In this document: positions 5,115 through 16,617 of the stretch, one piece after another
Numbering within the stretch: the stretch's first letter is position 1
Layout of the letters: each line of letters starts with the position of its first letter
Virus record (IMG/VR): IMGVR_UViG_3300044535_000366
Coordinates: 1 to 22,194 of that record
DNA: 22,194 bases
Origin: a virus
Reading direction: 5' to 3' (one strand)
Notes under the pieces: generated by a model
Seen by the model: only the letters and a program-made list of their open reading frames with translations
Told to the model about the DNA's origin: nothing
The model's database searches: none
Translations under genes and position numbers: made by a program

Positions 5115-6109
5115 TGAGCGGCGCGCTTGGCGATCTGTTTGGCCTAGGTCGCCCGACCTCTACAGCCACCTCTACCCCTACTGCCCCGCCTGACGTTGAG
5201 GCTGCGCGCCGCGATCTACTGGGCCGCGCCCAGGCGATAGCTGCCGAGCCCTTCGCCCGCTACAACCAGCCACGGATCGCGGGCTTCACCCCTGACCAGA
5301 TGGCTGGCTTCCAAGGTACGCGCGACATTGCGGCTGCCAGCCGGGGCCTCTCTGGCCTGACGCCGGAACTCACGCGCGAAGGTGTCGAAGCTACGCGGGG
5401 TCTGGCACAGCGCCTGCCCGACGTCGATATCTCTGAATACATGTCGCCCTACACCGAAGCAGTTCTCGACCCTGCTATCCGGGACATCGAGGAAAAGGCG
5501 GCACGCGAGCGTATGCGCCTCGGTCAGCAGTCCGCGCGCACCGGTTCGTTTGGTGGCTCCCGCCAAGCCATCGCAGAATCCGAACTGGAGCGCGGCACCC
5601 AGCGCACCATCGGTGAAGAATCCGCCCGCCAGCGCGCTGCCGCCTACACCAATGCGCTCGCGCAGTTCCGCGCCGACCAAGAGCGTATCCCCCAACTTTA
5701 CGCGGGCGCCCTCGGCCAACTCGGCATGGGCCTCCAGCAAACGGCGGGCCGCCTGGGCACCGAAGTCAATCCGCTTCTCGCGACGGGCGCTGCCCAACAG
5801 GGCCTTGACCAGCGCAATCTTGACCTGTTGCGCCAGTCCTTCGAAGAAGAACGGGACTATCCACTTCGCGGTCTTGAAGTGCTGCGGACGTCACTGGGCC
5901 TCCAGCCCTCCACTCTCGGCGTCGGCAACACCCAAGTCAGCACCGCCCCCGCACCCAATGTCCTCGGCTCCGTCGTCGGCGGTATCGCTCAGGCGCCGCA
6001 ATTCATTCAAGGCGCACAGGCTCTCGGTAACTTCTTTGGCCTCGGTGGCGCCGCTGCACCCGCAGCCCCTGGCCTGTCTCCCATGTTTAGCAACTTTGGG
6101 AATACCTAA
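5114..6109 (+). CDS. Internal virion/ejection-type protein
   Basis: This 331-residue protein contains the conserved block YMSPYTEAVLDPAIRDIEEK followed by GQQSARTGSFGGSRQAIAESELERG (around residues 112-160). I recognise this block from virion proteins of podovirus-like phages, where it lies in a long helical region. Residues 30-290 are predominantly helical with many Arg, Glu, Gln and Ala. The last 50 residues are hydrophobic and glycine-rich (SVVGGIAQAPQF, ALGNFFGLGG), possibly membrane-active. It starts inside the stop of the preceding gene (TAATG) and is followed closely by another helical protein. An internal core protein ejected with the DNA is the likely role; no enzymatic motif was seen. 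Confidence 0.66.
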   Translation: MSGALGDLFGLGRPTSTATSTPTAPPDVEAARRDLLGRAQAIAAEPFARYNQPRIAGFTPDQMAGFQGTRDIAAASRGLSGLTPELTREGVEATRGLAQRLPDVDISEYMSPYTEAVLDPAIRDIEEKAARERMRLGQQSARTGSFGGSRQAIAESELERGTQRTIGEESARQRAAAYTNALAQFRADQERIPQLYAGALGQLGMGLQQTAGRLGTEVNPLLATGAAQQGLDQRNLDLLRQSFEEERDYPLRGLEVLRTSLGLQPSTLGVGNTQVSTAPAPNVLGSVVGGIAQAPQFIQGAQALGNFFGLGGAAAPAAPGLSPMFSNFGNT

Positions 6110-6112
6110 GTC

Positions 6113-6808
6113 ATGTCACAGTCCATGCTTGATATGCTCCGCAATCGCGTAGCAGCTAACATGCAGAACGAAGGGATTGCCCGGCTCTCTGAGTTTGGTG
6201 CTGGCATGGCCGCGTCAGGTAGCCCTAACTTCTTCACGATGCTTAGTGCCGGTGCCCGCGCCCAACGCGAAGGCGATGCTACCCGCATGGAAGAACTGCG
6301 TCGCGTAGCCGAAGCCGAACGTCAGGCCCGCGCCCAGCAGGCCGAAGAGCAATACCGCAGCAGCCAACTTGAAATCGAACGCCAGCGTCGCGCCAACGAG
6401 GAACGCCGCATTAACGCCGAGATTGCGCGTGGCGACCGCCCGCAATATACTGTGGTCGGCCAGGACGCTGACGGCAATGCTATCGTCATGGACCCGCGCA
6501 CCGGTCAGCGTCAAACTCTCCAAGGTGTTACGCCCCTCCAAGTCGCTTCGCGTGGCGCACAATCAGAGACGCAAAACCGTCAGTTGGCTGCCCGCCTCGC
6601 TGAAGCTGCTGTCAACCGTGAAGCCACCAATCGCAGCAACATGGGCCGCACCTTCAGCGACACTGACCGCGCTGCCCTGCGCCGCCAAGTCGAAGGTGAT
6701 GTTCTTAGGAGTCTCGGCCTTGAGCCTGTTGCCGGGGCTGGTGGCGCGCCCGGCACGCAAGGTTCGCAACCGAGCAGGGTGCTTACATATCCTCGGACCC
6801 CCGAATAA
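6113..6808 (+). CDS. Coiled-coil internal virion-type protein
   Basis: This 231-residue protein has an N-terminal segment with a small hydrophobic stretch (GAGMAASGSPNFFTMLSAG, about 29-47). It is followed by a long charged coiled coil rich in Arg, Glu and Gln (about 50-105). A short beta segment follows, YTVVGQDADGNAIVMDPRTGQ (112-132), of a kind I associate with phage internal or tail-region proteins. The C-terminus is Gly/Pro-rich. It begins three bases after the previous stop and ends three bases before the 1784-aa gene, so it belongs to the ejection block. It may scaffold or accompany the large neighbour. No catalytic residues are visible. Confidence 0.63.
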   Translation: MSQSMLDMLRNRVAANMQNEGIARLSEFGAGMAASGSPNFFTMLSAGARAQREGDATRMEELRRVAEAERQARAQQAEEQYRSSQLEIERQRRANEERRINAEIARGDRPQYTVVGQDADGNAIVMDPRTGQRQTLQGVTPLQVASRGAQSETQNRQLAARLAEAAVNREATNRSNMGRTFSDTDRAALRRQVEGDVLRSLGLEPVAGAGGAPGTQGSQPSRVLTYPRTPE

Positions 6809-12207: not shown

Positions 12208-12996
12208 ATGTCAAAATTTGCCTATTACATTGGTGTTGATCACCGCGAGCCCGAAGCTCTCCGTGTAACTGAGTCGTCTGTCCGAGCCTACGCCAGTAAG
12301 CCCGTTCAGATCGGCCACCTAGAACACATCGACCTGCGAAGGCGCCAACTCTTTGATCGCCCGTGGCGCATCAACGAAGACGGCACCTACATGGACGAAC
12401 GTGACGGGCGGCCCTTCAGCGTCCAGTTCTCCCACTCGCGCTTCCTGACGCCCATCGTCGCCAAGCAAGACGGCATCACCGACTGGGCTCTCTTCACGGA
12501 CTCGGATCTCCTCTGGATTGATGACATCCACAAGTTGCTGTGTGAGGCTGACCCGTCAAAGACGGTCATGGTCGTGCCCCACAATTTCCAACCGGGCGCC
12601 ACGATTAAGATGGACGGTCAGAAGCAATCTCAATATGCCAGAAAGCTGTGGTCTTCTGTCATGCTGTGGAATCTCAAGTCCAAGCTGTTACCCACCTTCG
12701 AGATGGTAAACTCCGCTCCCGGCAGTTACCTTCATGCTTTCGAGTGGCTAGACGATTCCGACATCGGTTATCTCTCCGAAAGCTGGAACTGGATACCTAA
12801 TTACAGTCCCACAACTGACAAGGGAATTGAGGCGGAAAACAATAATCGTCCGCTCCCCATTAACGCAATCCATTATACCATGGGGCCGCCTGTGGCTGGC
12901 ATGGACAACCGGGAACCGACAGCTTTCGACGAAATGTGGCGCGGCCACTTGAAAACCGCCATGCAGCAATTTGCTGACGATCTTCCAAGTGGCTAA
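12208..12996 (+). CDS. GT8-like glycosyltransferase (GT-A fold)
   Basis: This 262-residue protein resembles family 8-type glycosyltransferases. The N-terminus YYIGVDHREPEA (6-17) matches the nucleotide-sugar binding start of the fold. WALFTDSDLLW (93-103) holds the metal-binding DxD (D98-S-D100). KMDGQKQSQYARKLWSSVMLWN (split, 134-155) and LHAFEWL (175-181) match the acceptor-side region. IHYTMGPP (221-228) supplies the C-terminal metal-binding His. It would move a sugar from a nucleotide donor to an unknown acceptor in the cytoplasm. It opens a cassette with its own promoter and has no Shine-Dalgarno (leaderless). The second sugar-related gene lies after an inserted nuclease. Donor and acceptor cannot be read from sequence; phage glycans, virion proteins or host surface sugars are candidates. 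Confidence 0.78.
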   Translation: MSKFAYYIGVDHREPEALRVTESSVRAYASKPVQIGHLEHIDLRRRQLFDRPWRINEDGTYMDERDGRPFSVQFSHSRFLTPIVAKQDGITDWALFTDSDLLWIDDIHKLLCEADPSKTVMVVPHNFQPGATIKMDGQKQSQYARKLWSSVMLWNLKSKLLPTFEMVNSAPGSYLHAFEWLDDSDIGYLSESWNWIPNYSPTTDKGIEAENNNRPLPINAIHYTMGPPVAGMDNREPTAFDEMWRGHLKTAMQQFADDLPSG

Positions 12997-13561
12997 AATA
13001 TACTACAACGACAAGCCGTGTAAGCATGGACACTCGGCGGGGCGCTATGAAGCCTCTCGTCAATGTGTCGTGTGCCACAAAGAAACACAAGATAGGCGCC
13101 GCCAATCTCCTGAAGGTAAGGCTGCCCACTTGGCGCGGGTAAAAGACTGGCAACAACGCAACCCCGAAAAGGTACTTTCTTATAAGAAGAAATACCTAGA
13201 CGAAAACCGCGAGCAAATATACGCGCGACTTGCTGACTATCGAAAAGCTTTTCCAGAACGGCGAAAAGCCGTAACACGCGCCTATGCAGTAAAGAACAAA
13301 GATAAGATTTGCGCGTCATCCAGACAGCGTCAAGCCAAAAAGCTTTATGCCATGCCTGCGTGGGTAGATAAAAATGAAATCCAAATTATATACGAACAAT
13401 GCTCATATATAAGCAGGCTCATGGCCGTTCCACATGAAGTAGATCACATAGTGCCTCTTCAAAATTCAAAGGTTTGCGGCCTGCACGTACCGTGGAATTT
13501 GCAAATCATTCCTACTGTAGAAAACCGCCGTAAGGCAAATGTCTTCCAAGGGTTTAGATAA
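12989..13561 (+). CDS. HNH homing-type endonuclease
   Basis: This 190-residue protein ends in an HNH core: HEVDHIVPLQNSKVCGL (149-165, with D152-H153) and HVPWNLQIIPTVENRRKAN (166-184, with N170 and the final Asn). The N-terminus carries a zinc-knuckle arrangement, CKHGHSAGRYEASRQCVVC (11-29), typical of phage free-standing HNH enzymes. A long Lys/Arg-rich helical linker lies between. The DNA is clearly AT-richer and uses different codons than the flanking genes, a sign of recent transfer. I choose GTG at 12989 because MAKIYYNDKPCKHGH then begins the typical N-terminus. A TTG at 12971 in the same frame would lie deeper inside the upstream gene. The gene overlaps the end of the glycosyltransferase by 8 bases, and its stop overlaps the next ATG. 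It probably spreads itself by cutting a related genome lacking it. Confidence 0.8.
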   Translation: MAKIYYNDKPCKHGHSAGRYEASRQCVVCHKETQDRRRQSPEGKAAHLARVKDWQQRNPEKVLSYKKKYLDENREQIYARLADYRKAFPERRKAVTRAYAVKNKDKICASSRQRQAKKLYAMPAWVDKNEIQIIYEQCSYISRLMAVPHEVDHIVPLQNSKVCGLHVPWNLQIIPTVENRRKANVFQGFR

Positions 13562-15705
13562 TGCGCGCTAAGATCATCACCACCATCGGCCCCAACTCAT
13601 GGGAACGCTATGGCCTGCGCTTCGCAGAATCCTTCACGAAGTTCTGGCCCGCCGATATCGCCCTCGAAATCTGGCACCACGACCTCGACGGCAACGTGCC
13701 CGAGTTCCCCGACGTCACCTTCCATGCCCTCGAAGATACCGCTTCCTTCCAGAAGCTCAAGGCCCACATCGGCGCCCAAGCCAAGGACGGCCCGTCGCTG
13801 GACTACTGCTTCAAGGCGGTGGCCCTCGCTTCCAGCGTGACACCGGACCTCGACTGGATTGGCTTCATCGACGCAGACACCGAAACCATGCGGCCCGTCG
13901 ATGAAGCCCTGCTGGCCGAACTGTTCGACGACAACCATCACCTGACTTACCTGTATCGGCGCTCGGCCAAGGAAAGCGAGGGTTCTTGGTTTGCCTTCAA
14001 TCTGGCTACCGTCAAGGGCGCCTCCCTGCTGGCCGATTATTGGGGCCTCTACAATTCGCTTGAAGCCTTTCACTACAAGAAGGCCCACGACAATGCAATC
14101 CTTGACCGCATCACCCTGCTGCACCAAGCGCATGGCCTTCAAGTCAAGAACCTGTCGCCCGGCTGTCTTGGCCTCGACGCCTTTCACCAGTCGCCGCTTG
14201 CCGCCTACATGGTCCACTACAAAGGCCCCGACAAGCAGACCATCGCCAACCCGGCCCTCGGTTCCCCGGCCCGCTACGAAACCCTGTGCGAAATCCTAAC
14301 GGCCTCTGTCGCTGCCACTAACGCCGCCCGCCTCGTCGAAGTCGGCACATGGAACGGCAGTCGCGCAATCCAGATGGCAAACGCGGCCTTCGCTGCCGGG
14401 GCCGTGACCGTCTCCTACATCGGCTTCGACACCTTCGAAGGCGGCAACGACCGCGTTTATGAAGGCCATACCAAGCCGCACGCCGACTCGTGGATTGTCC
14501 GCAACCGCCTCAACAACTACGCCCAGGTGATGGCGCGTAAGGGCCTGACCTTCGACTTCTCCCTAGTCATGGGCAACACGCTTGAGACGCTGCCCGGTTC
14601 ACCCGACCTCGTAGCCGACGCCACCTTCGCTTACATTGACGGCGGCCACTCCTACGAAACCACCAAATCTGATTATGAATGCCTGAAGCATGTGCCTTAC
14701 ATCGTCTTCGATGACGTCATTGTCAACGAGGAAGAAGGTGCGCCCGAGGGTCCGCGCCGTATCATGCAGGAGATCGAAGGGCAGAAGCGGATCATCACCA
14801 GCGGCGATGGCTACTCCGGTCTGGAGCAAACCATTTCGCTTGGCGTCGTCGTGCGCGACAACTATCCGGTGCCGGAACTCCGCACCCGCATCGAAGTGAA
14901 GCCCGTCGATTCTGTTGACAAGGGCGAGCAACTTCAGCATATTGCGGATAACGCTGCCGCCATTCCAACTTGGATCGGCTCCTACCAAGCCCACACCGGC
15001 ATTGCTTTGTTCGTCAGTGCGGGGCCTACCCTGCCCGACCACATCGAAGACATTCGTGCCAAGCAGGCAGCCGGTGCCGTTGTCTTCGCAGTCAAGCACG
15101 CCTTCCCCGTTCTGAAGGCCGCCGGTATCCGGCCCGACTGGACTGTCATTCTTGATCCGCGCCCGGTCGATGGCAAGTCCACGCACGGCATCATTCGCAC
15201 CGAACTGTTCGCGGACGTCGATGCCAATGACCGCTTTCTCTTCGCGACCATGACGCATCCGTCGGTGCGTAAGGTGCTAGAAGAAAAGGGCGCCCAGCTT
15301 TACGGTTGGCACGCCCACACCCAAGCCACCCTAGCTGCCAAGCCACCGGCCTTCGACACCGGCCTCGTCGTTGCAGGGGGCACTTGCTCTGCGACCCGCA
15401 TCCCGATGCTAGCTTTCGTCATGGGCTTCCGCCGCTTCGAGTTCTACGGCTACGACTTCTTCTACCCCGACAACGTGCAGCAGTCCGACGTCAAGCAACA
15501 ACTGATGCGCGTTAACTTGGGCACTGACCAGAAGTCCTACCTGACGACGGGCGAACTCATCGCCGCGATGCAGGACCTCGGCCAATGGAATCGGTGGCTG
15601 GTCGAGAACCGCATCACCGTCACCTTCCACGGCGAGGGCGCGGGCGCAGCCATCTGGAACCAGACCACCGCCGCCTACAAAGCCCCAGAGGAATATCCAT
15701 TCTAA
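13561..15705 (+). CDS. Three-domain glycosyltransferase / SAM methyltransferase / DUF115 (MAF-like) protein
   Basis: This 714-residue fusion has three recognisable parts. Residues 1-225 form a GT-A-like glycosyltransferase with LDWIGFIDADTETM (97-110; DxD at 104-106), HDNAILDRI (176-184) and a terminal HYKGPDK (219-225). Residues about 235-440 form a class I methyltransferase of the CmcI/Methyltransf_24 type, with LVEVGTWNGSRAI (258-270; SAM-binding loop), GFDTFEGGND (288-297), YIDGGHSYETTKSDYE (358-373) and IVFDDV (381-386). Residues about 475-700 match DUF115 (MptE/MAF-like), with ALFVSAGPTL (482-491), DWTVILDP (526-533), GLVVAGGTCSATRIP (601-615) and FYGYDFFY (628-635). DUF115 domains occur in flagellin glycosyltransferases of the MAF family. 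The protein could build and methylate a sugar and attach it to a protein. Translation is coupled to the genes on both sides (TAATG). Confidence 0.8.
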   Translation: MRAKIITTIGPNSWERYGLRFAESFTKFWPADIALEIWHHDLDGNVPEFPDVTFHALEDTASFQKLKAHIGAQAKDGPSLDYCFKAVALASSVTPDLDWIGFIDADTETMRPVDEALLAELFDDNHHLTYLYRRSAKESEGSWFAFNLATVKGASLLADYWGLYNSLEAFHYKKAHDNAILDRITLLHQAHGLQVKNLSPGCLGLDAFHQSPLAAYMVHYKGPDKQTIANPALGSPARYETLCEILTASVAATNAARLVEVGTWNGSRAIQMANAAFAAGAVTVSYIGFDTFEGGNDRVYEGHTKPHADSWIVRNRLNNYAQVMARKGLTFDFSLVMGNTLETLPGSPDLVADATFAYIDGGHSYETTKSDYECLKHVPYIVFDDVIVNEEEGAPEGPRRIMQEIEGQKRIITSGDGYSGLEQTISLGVVVRDNYPVPELRTRIEVKPVDSVDKGEQLQHIADNAAAIPTWIGSYQAHTGIALFVSAGPTLPDHIEDIRAKQAAGAVVFAVKHAFPVLKAAGIRPDWTVILDPRPVDGKSTHGIIRTELFADVDANDRFLFATMTHPSVRKVLEEKGAQLYGWHAHTQATLAAKPPAFDTGLVVAGGTCSATRIPMLAFVMGFRRFEFYGYDFFYPDNVQQSDVKQQLMRVNLGTDQKSYLTTGELIAAMQDLGQWNRWLVENRITVTFHGEGAGAAIWNQTTAAYKAPEEYPF

Positions 15706-15950
15706 TGACACATGTATTTGAAGGCAAGCCTGATGGCCGTCAACTCGAAACGATCCAGCCTGTGTCCCGCTTTCGGCCCCGTTACAGGGCGCTGACTGAC
15801 GAAGAAAAGGCGCTGCACGACAAGCTCAAGGCCAAGGCCGAAGAACTCGAATCGCTGTTCAACGAGGTGAAAGATGGGCGATATAAGTCGCTGGCATTCA
15901 CCTCCCTTGAACAGTCCATCATGTGGATCGTCAAGGAGCTAACGTCTTAG
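15705..15950 (+). CDS. Small helical-hairpin protein, Acb2/Tad1-like (candidate anti-CBASS/anti-Thoeris sponge)
   Basis: The protein has 81 residues when started at MTHVFEG, whose ATG overlaps the upstream stop (TAATG). The same frame is open further upstream inside the 714-aa gene, but that part is an alternate reading of it. Residues 24-30 (RPRYRAL) lead into helix one, LTDEEKALHDKLKAKAEELE, and SLFNEV (30-55). A turn DGRYKS and helix two LAFTSLEQSIMWIVKELT (63-80) complete a hairpin. This matches the pattern of the Acb2/Tad1 hairpin family: R-x-L-T-x-E-E, IK-x-KA-x-EL, R-(W/Y)-x-S-(I/L), T-x-L-(E/Q), then a hydrophobic M-x-x-V-(K/R)-x-(I/L). Characterised members form oligomers that bind cyclic nucleotides and silence CBASS or Thoeris immunity. 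Some relatives have no tested function, so the ligand is unknown. I infer the family by eye; the function is a hypothesis. Confidence 0.6.
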   Translation: MTHVFEGKPDGRQLETIQPVSRFRPRYRALTDEEKALHDKLKAKAEELESLFNEVKDGRYKSLAFTSLEQSIMWIVKELTS

Positions 15951-16192
15951 CGGAACTTCTTCGCTATCTTCGCGGCGCTGGCAGGCTGCTTTGAAAACTG
16001 CTTGCCAGCCCGCGTTGCCTTCCGTTTCGCTGCGCTACTCGCCGCATAAGTCGAGGCAGACATAGCCTTAATAGCCGCTTCGGGTAAGTAGCGTTCACCT
16101 GTCGCTTGCGGCCCCTGCGTGCTAGGCTTGCCCGACTTGGTGCGCCACTTCTGCTTGGTCCAATCGACCAGCGACTTCTGCGGGGCCTTCAC
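15947..16192 (-). CDS. Small basic protein, DUF5872-like
   Basis: This 81-residue, Lys/Ala/Ser-rich protein contains SLVDWTKQKWRTKSGKPSTQG (split, about 7-27) and ATGERYLPEAAIKAMS (about 30-45). It continues with KRKATRAGKQFSKQP (about 56-70) and ends in KFR. I recognise this pattern from a small conserved family of phage and some cellular proteins that I believe is DUF5872; the family number is from memory. No function is established. The start is GTG at 16192, overlapping the stop of the nuclease upstream (GTGA). It is the last gene of the leftward operon, and its stop shares bases with the stop of the convergent hairpin-protein gene. A DNA- or RNA-binding role would fit the charge but is inference. 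Confidence 0.66.
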   Translation of the reverse strand: MKAPQKSLVDWTKQKWRTKSGKPSTQGPQATGERYLPEAAIKAMSASTYAASSAAKRKATRAGKQFSKQPASAAKIAKKFR

Positions 16193-16617
16193 GACTTATA
16201 GCCCTTTGCATTTTGTTTGAGATATTCGACGGCAGCTTCTAAGACTTCAATCTTGTCACGAGCATGGCCCAGAACCGTGTTGCACGGGTTGCAAAGAACG
16301 CCGCGCACTACTCCGGTAGCATGACAATGATCCACGTCCAGCTTCCTGCCCAATGCCGTCTCTTCAATACCGCAAATCATGCAGGAATAATTCTGCTCTT
16401 TACGAATTTCTTCCCACTGGCTATGCTCTAACCCGTAACGCAGCTTCAGCTTCTCGGCTTTGCGATTACGCTTGGTGTTTGGGTTAGTGTGCTTATATAG
16501 CAAATGGCATGGACGGCAACGCGAGCTATAAAACTTACGCCCCGCCCACTTGTCATAGAACTGATAGTACTCAGTCAGCTCTTTCTCTTGCTTGCAGTGG
16601 AGGCATGACTTAGTCAC
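16189..16617 (-). CDS. Endonuclease VII-like nuclease (His-Me/HNH-type)
   Basis: This 142-residue protein matches the recombination endonuclease VII family. KLKLRYGLEHSQWEEI (56-71) leads into CMIC (79-82), LDVDHCHATGVVRGVLC (93-109) and NPCNTVLGHARD (110-121). The zinc is probably held by C79, C82, C109 and C112; the catalytic His is in the DHCH motif (96-99). An additional N-terminal zinc finger is formed by C5-C8 and C34-C37. T4 endonuclease VII resolves DNA branches for packaging, but many small relatives are mobile homing-type enzymes. This one is AT-richer than most neighbours and sits among tiny genes, which favours a mobile origin. The start is GTG at 16617, overlapping the previous gene by 8 bases. 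Confidence 0.8.
   Translation of the reverse strand: MTKSCLHCKQEKELTEYYQFYDKWAGRKFYSSRCRPCHLLYKHTNPNTKRNRKAEKLKLRYGLEHSQWEEIRKEQNYSCMICGIEETALGRKLDVDHCHATGVVRGVLCNPCNTVLGHARDKIEVLEAAVEYLKQNAKGYKS

Follow-up and report, generated by a model that had tools for sequence, protein, structure and literature searches.

An optional phage gene for a predicted Acb2-type cyclic-nucleotide sponge of the Acb2/Tad1 hairpin family

Known members of the Acb2/Tad1 family sequester the alarm molecules that bacteria use against viruses. Acb2 is a homohexamer that binds cyclic di- and trinucleotides and blocks CBASS, Tad1 is a sponge for gcADPR and cyclic oligonucleotides, and the Tad2 family was reportedly first found against Thoeris. 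Among the structurally known proteins are the Acb2 of the Pseudomonas phages PaP2 and PaMx33 (p26; PDB 8H2J, 8H2X) and that of phage T4 (Vs.4; PDB 7UQ2). In T4 Acb2, cyclic-dinucleotide binding is reportedly disrupted by the exchange Y8A (PMC12657218, PMC12657230) and the binding affinity lowered by T68M (PMC12657230), while Phe82 stacks on the ligand (PMC12657218). Here we describe a new member of this family, encoded in a 22-kb virus record with phage structural, ejection, endolysin and holin genes, which was analysed over its whole length of 22,194 nucleotides (the window). We consider it, with a probability of roughly 78%, to be a short Acb2-type sponge that blocks CBASS-like signalling and is carried as an optional cassette.

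The gene extends on the plus strand from an ATG at 15705 to a TAG at 15948–15950 (15705–15950), and its product is the 81-residue protein MTHVFEGKPDGRQLETIQPVSRFRPRYRALTDEEKALHDKLKAKAEELESLFNEVKDGRYKSLAFTSLEQSIMWIVKELTS. The earlier note had the coordinates of this 81-codon frame right, and the gene is real. Its full length is retained in dozens of relatives, and in comparisons with the two nearest of them, third codon positions account for 22 of 27 differing nucleotides in one case and 22 of 30 in the other, with a dN/dS of about 0.05–0.07; against the more distant relatives compared, dN/dS is about 0.09–0.14. The gene is under purifying selection, and these substitution patterns, together with the full-length relatives and a family match at E 1.4e-15, exclude a chance open reading frame.

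This match is to PF24729 (Acb2_Tad1_hairpin), the sole significant family in Pfam-A, and it aligns residues 27–77 with positions 2–54 of the 58 in the profile. The earlier note had placed the protein in this family and suggested a Pfam search; the resulting 57.6 bits, against a curated cut-off of 27 bits, bear the assignment out, as do the predicted fold and the conservation of known ligand residues, and its main claim holds at the family level. On the same scale, PaP2 Acb2 scores 66.1 bits and T4 Acb2 71.4 bits. Among the PHROG families, the protein matches phrog_1454 (9e-8) and phrog_717 (E 0.0019), the latter being the best PHROG family of both PaP2 and T4 Acb2. No match was obtained in NCBIfam, and a phmmer search of the PDB with the single protein returned a chance hit only. 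When known phages were searched at the DNA level, nothing but short matches emerged, in two Roseobacter phages and confined to the neighbouring gene. With a subfamily profile, PDB sequences yielded PaP2 Acb2 only at E 0.17, alongside coiled coils, so that sequence searches of the PDB are not proof by themselves. As for the sequence motifs highlighted in the earlier note, they are present, except that its ‘IK-x-KA-x-EL’ reads LKAKAEEL here; among relatives, Ile is commoner than Leu at the first position of this motif.

On the structural level, AlphaFold2 predicts the same two-helix hairpin from alignments with 31 and with 59 relatives, with antiparallel helices spanning residues 32–52 and 59–80. 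The pLDDT is 94–98 across most of the hairpin and above 90 for most helix residues, and about 50–70 in the N-terminal part of the model, which is thus of low confidence. In a fold search of the PDB, T4 Vs.4 and PaP2 Acb2 rank at the top, the first eight matches are all Acb2, and Tad1 follows next; with the deeper alignment, the first 17 are all Acb2 or Tad1. Likewise, the best matches in a library of viral structures are named Acb2/Tad1 hairpin proteins. For so plain a fold, a two-helix hairpin, Foldseek returns weak E-values (0.27 at best), as can be expected, and the evidence lies in the ranking of the matches rather than in single E-values. Even so, these E-values and the E of 0.17 for PaP2 Acb2 in the profile search count against the sponge reading.

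Despite an identity of only about 28%, the protein resembles PaP2 Acb2 in its hairpin profile, in its predicted fold (rmsd about 1.5 Å over the aligned part), in a GR...T...M pattern and in being a short single-domain phage protein. Both also share two residues linked to ligand binding. Lys42 (codon 15828–15830, plus strand) aligns with T4 K23 and with PaP2 K26, reportedly a cyclic-dinucleotide residue in the Acb2 structure. Tyr27 (15783–15785, plus strand) aligns with the cyclic-dinucleotide-binding residues Y11 of PaP2 Acb2 and Y8 of T4 Acb2, and it is the sole fully invariant column in an alignment of 13 sequences that includes both of these proteins and distant phage relatives. T4 Acb2, at about 23% identity, additionally shares Thr66 (15900–15902, plus strand; T4 T68). 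All three residues are invariant among 74 distinct close relatives, a set that leaves out the members with a loop insertion, in which Thr66 is replaced. R59, examined with regard to the separate cyclic-trinucleotide site, does not vary among close relatives and corresponds to R67 of PaP2 Acb2. By contrast, the ligand-stacking Phe82 of T4 corresponds to Thr80 here and to Ala in PaP2, and is therefore not required family-wide.

The C-terminus, where the earlier note had seen an unusual Trp/Lys (MWIVKEL), turned out to be ordinary: T4 Acb2 has SMWACR and most relatives MW..K, and we reject these residues as a mark of a different ligand. PaP2 Acb2 differs here, with Ala at the position of Trp74.

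What sets the protein apart from both PaP2 and T4 Acb2 is an N-terminal extension of 26 residues (codons 1–26, 15705–15782, plus strand) with the conserved pattern HVFEGxPDxRQ...SRFRP. Its residues D10, R12, F23 and R24 are invariant among the 74 distinct relatives, and their positions are gaps in PaP2 and T4 Acb2. This conservation exceeds what an arms race would lead one to expect and, lacking a counterpart in these two proteins, also counts against the sponge reading. The extension is partly common to gp37 of Sinorhizobium phage Aussie and DVVG_00015 of Dunaliella viridis virus SI2 (D-x-R and R-x-x-Y-R), two proteins of similar length that score 68 bits each against PF24729. They are only 32–40% identical to the protein described here, have a shorter N-terminal part and are annotated as hypothetical only. 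The hairpin loop of the subfamily is short, that of PaP2 Acb2 being about 20 residues longer. In Azospirillum-type relatives (L037, L038, L040, L041 and L042), roughly 30–45 residues are inserted in this loop, and some of these members score at or under the PF24729 cut-off.

In some relatives, a second sponge family is found nearby. A Tad2-like gene (PF11195) is present in three of the 89 viral and phage records that bear a relative, in each case directly upstream of it (L084, 4747–5249; L019 and L021, both 5751–6246). In the first, it overlaps the GTG start of the Acb2-like gene by four bases; in the other two, the genes are 28 bp apart. Since L019 and L021 hardly differ over the stretch that was compared, the pairing represents two lineages; it speaks in favour of the sponge reading, although the window itself holds no Tad2-like gene. 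One could imagine that the 26-residue extension and the short-loop hairpin form a new lid or second pocket, which would set these proteins apart as an Acb2 subfamily of their own, able to bind ligands outside the range of known Acb2 and Tad1 and acting in some phages as a unit with the adjacent Tad2; we regard this as possible, yet rather unlikely.

The same features bear on the question of whether the main ligand could instead be a cyclic ADP-ribose of the Thoeris type, or some other nucleotide signal; the extension would then stand in for the gcADPR part of Tad1. PF24729 also covers Tad1, whose C-terminal hairpin domain belongs to the family and whose structures come after those of Acb2 among the fold matches, and both the invariant extension residues and the Tad2-like neighbours, from a family associated with Thoeris, would fit such a ligand. 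However, Tad1 has a four-stranded antiparallel β-sheet at its N-terminus (PMC12043709), whereas the N-terminal part here is short and its first 31 residues, in the low-confidence region of the model, contain no predicted strand of at least three residues and hence no sign of this sheet. Furthermore, the Tyr and Lys with which Acb2 binds cyclic dinucleotides are retained, and a further gcADPR sponge would in part be superfluous beside Tad2. We therefore find a Thoeris-type main ligand improbable.

The genomic context adds a further line of evidence. Directly upstream lies the gene for a 714-residue protein (13561–15705, plus strand), which combines a DxD-bearing N-terminal part with Methyltransf_24 and MptE-like domains, and whose MptE region also finds a match among PDB sequences. 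Its stop codon overlaps the start codon of the 81-codon gene by one base (TAATG). On the other side, the stop codon of the latter overlaps that of a convergent gene for a small basic phage protein (phrog_14910; 15947–16192, minus strand), which forms the right border of the site. The view in the earlier note that the gene ends a sugar-modification cassette is only partly upheld: the MptE-like and methyltransferase domains speak for it, but an HNH/endonuclease VII-type frame (12971–13561) lies in between, and the 262-residue protein has no Pfam match and only a chance-level hit in a PDB sequence search. In L002 and L003, the nearest relatives, the HNH-type frame does not occur at the same place; it therefore probably entered as a free-standing endonuclease of the homing type. 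Another endonuclease VII gene, at 16189–16617, is likewise optional, being absent at this place in L002 and present in L003; in several other contigs, such a gene adjoins the empty site.

The site itself can be followed through 36 loci of the same lineage, fetched with the 714-residue protein as bait. Six of them carry the gene. In 28, it is cleanly missing and the convergent gene directly follows the 714-residue gene; in one example of the junction, the empty site reads TTCTAGCGGAAC and carriers read TTCTGATGACG...GTCTTAGCGGAAC, with no other change at the joint. The remaining two have other genes in the slot, namely a GNAT acetyltransferase gene in L157, directly after the homologue of the 714-residue gene (which ends at 6145), and another small open reading frame in L154. 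An exact empty site and alternative occupants confirm the suggestion in the earlier note that accessory genes collect here, and the gene is best read as an optional single-gene cassette. Outside the lineage, its relatives occur in unrelated settings.

This pattern also speaks to the idea that the hairpin is a small housekeeping protein of the phage, for example in morphogenesis, lysis or regulation, that has lost the binding of immune signals. The gene does follow a block that includes structural genes, a distant relative lies between head-tail genes in phage Aussie, and the strong conservation and low dN/dS would suit such a role. A gene absent from 30 of 36 contigs of its own lineage is dispensable, though, and neither the many unrelated places of its relatives nor the retained ligand residues would be expected, which makes a housekeeping function quite improbable. 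That the protein is only a coiled helical hairpin resembling Acb2 by chance and composition, as might be suggested by geminin and designed coiled coils, which score about as well as Acb2 when the subfamily profile is run against the PDB, is hardly credible: it is largely refuted by the PF24729 match, and the PHROG matches, including phrog_717, the fold and the position-specific conservation of Y27, K42 and T66 also stand against it.

Regarding possible hosts, the relatives detected in cellular genomes, at nine loci, all come from Alphaproteobacteria (Bradyrhizobium, Caulobacteraceae, Acetobacter, Azospirillum and similar), which makes an alphaproteobacterial host plausible for the phage in the window. 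Three of these nine genomes have genes for SMODS CD-NTases, as do 29 of 99 Bradyrhizobium genomes; these counts show that a CBASS-type target is available, and nothing beyond.

Under the Acb2-type sponge reading, the two-helix hairpin subunits would most likely form a hexamer whose pockets lie at the subunit contacts, where Tyr27 may stack on, and Lys42 contact, cyclic di- or trinucleotides. These ligands would be the products of host CD-NTases, from CBASS or related systems; with the signal sequestered, the effectors would stay off and the infected cell would be spared an early death. The gene would thereby serve counter-defence from its optional single-gene cassette, which lies between two convergent genes at the point where the rightward block ends.

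Many PF24729 proteins carry only a hypothetical annotation. The locus offers a natural experiment, in which related phages differ by one gene at one exact site, and the effect of the sponge on plating is directly testable with hosts that bear CBASS, Thoeris or Panoptes. Worth following are the conserved extension and this clean presence or absence of a single gene. Finally, from the arrangements with Tad2 beside Acb2 it would seem that phages can carry two signal sponges as neighbours.
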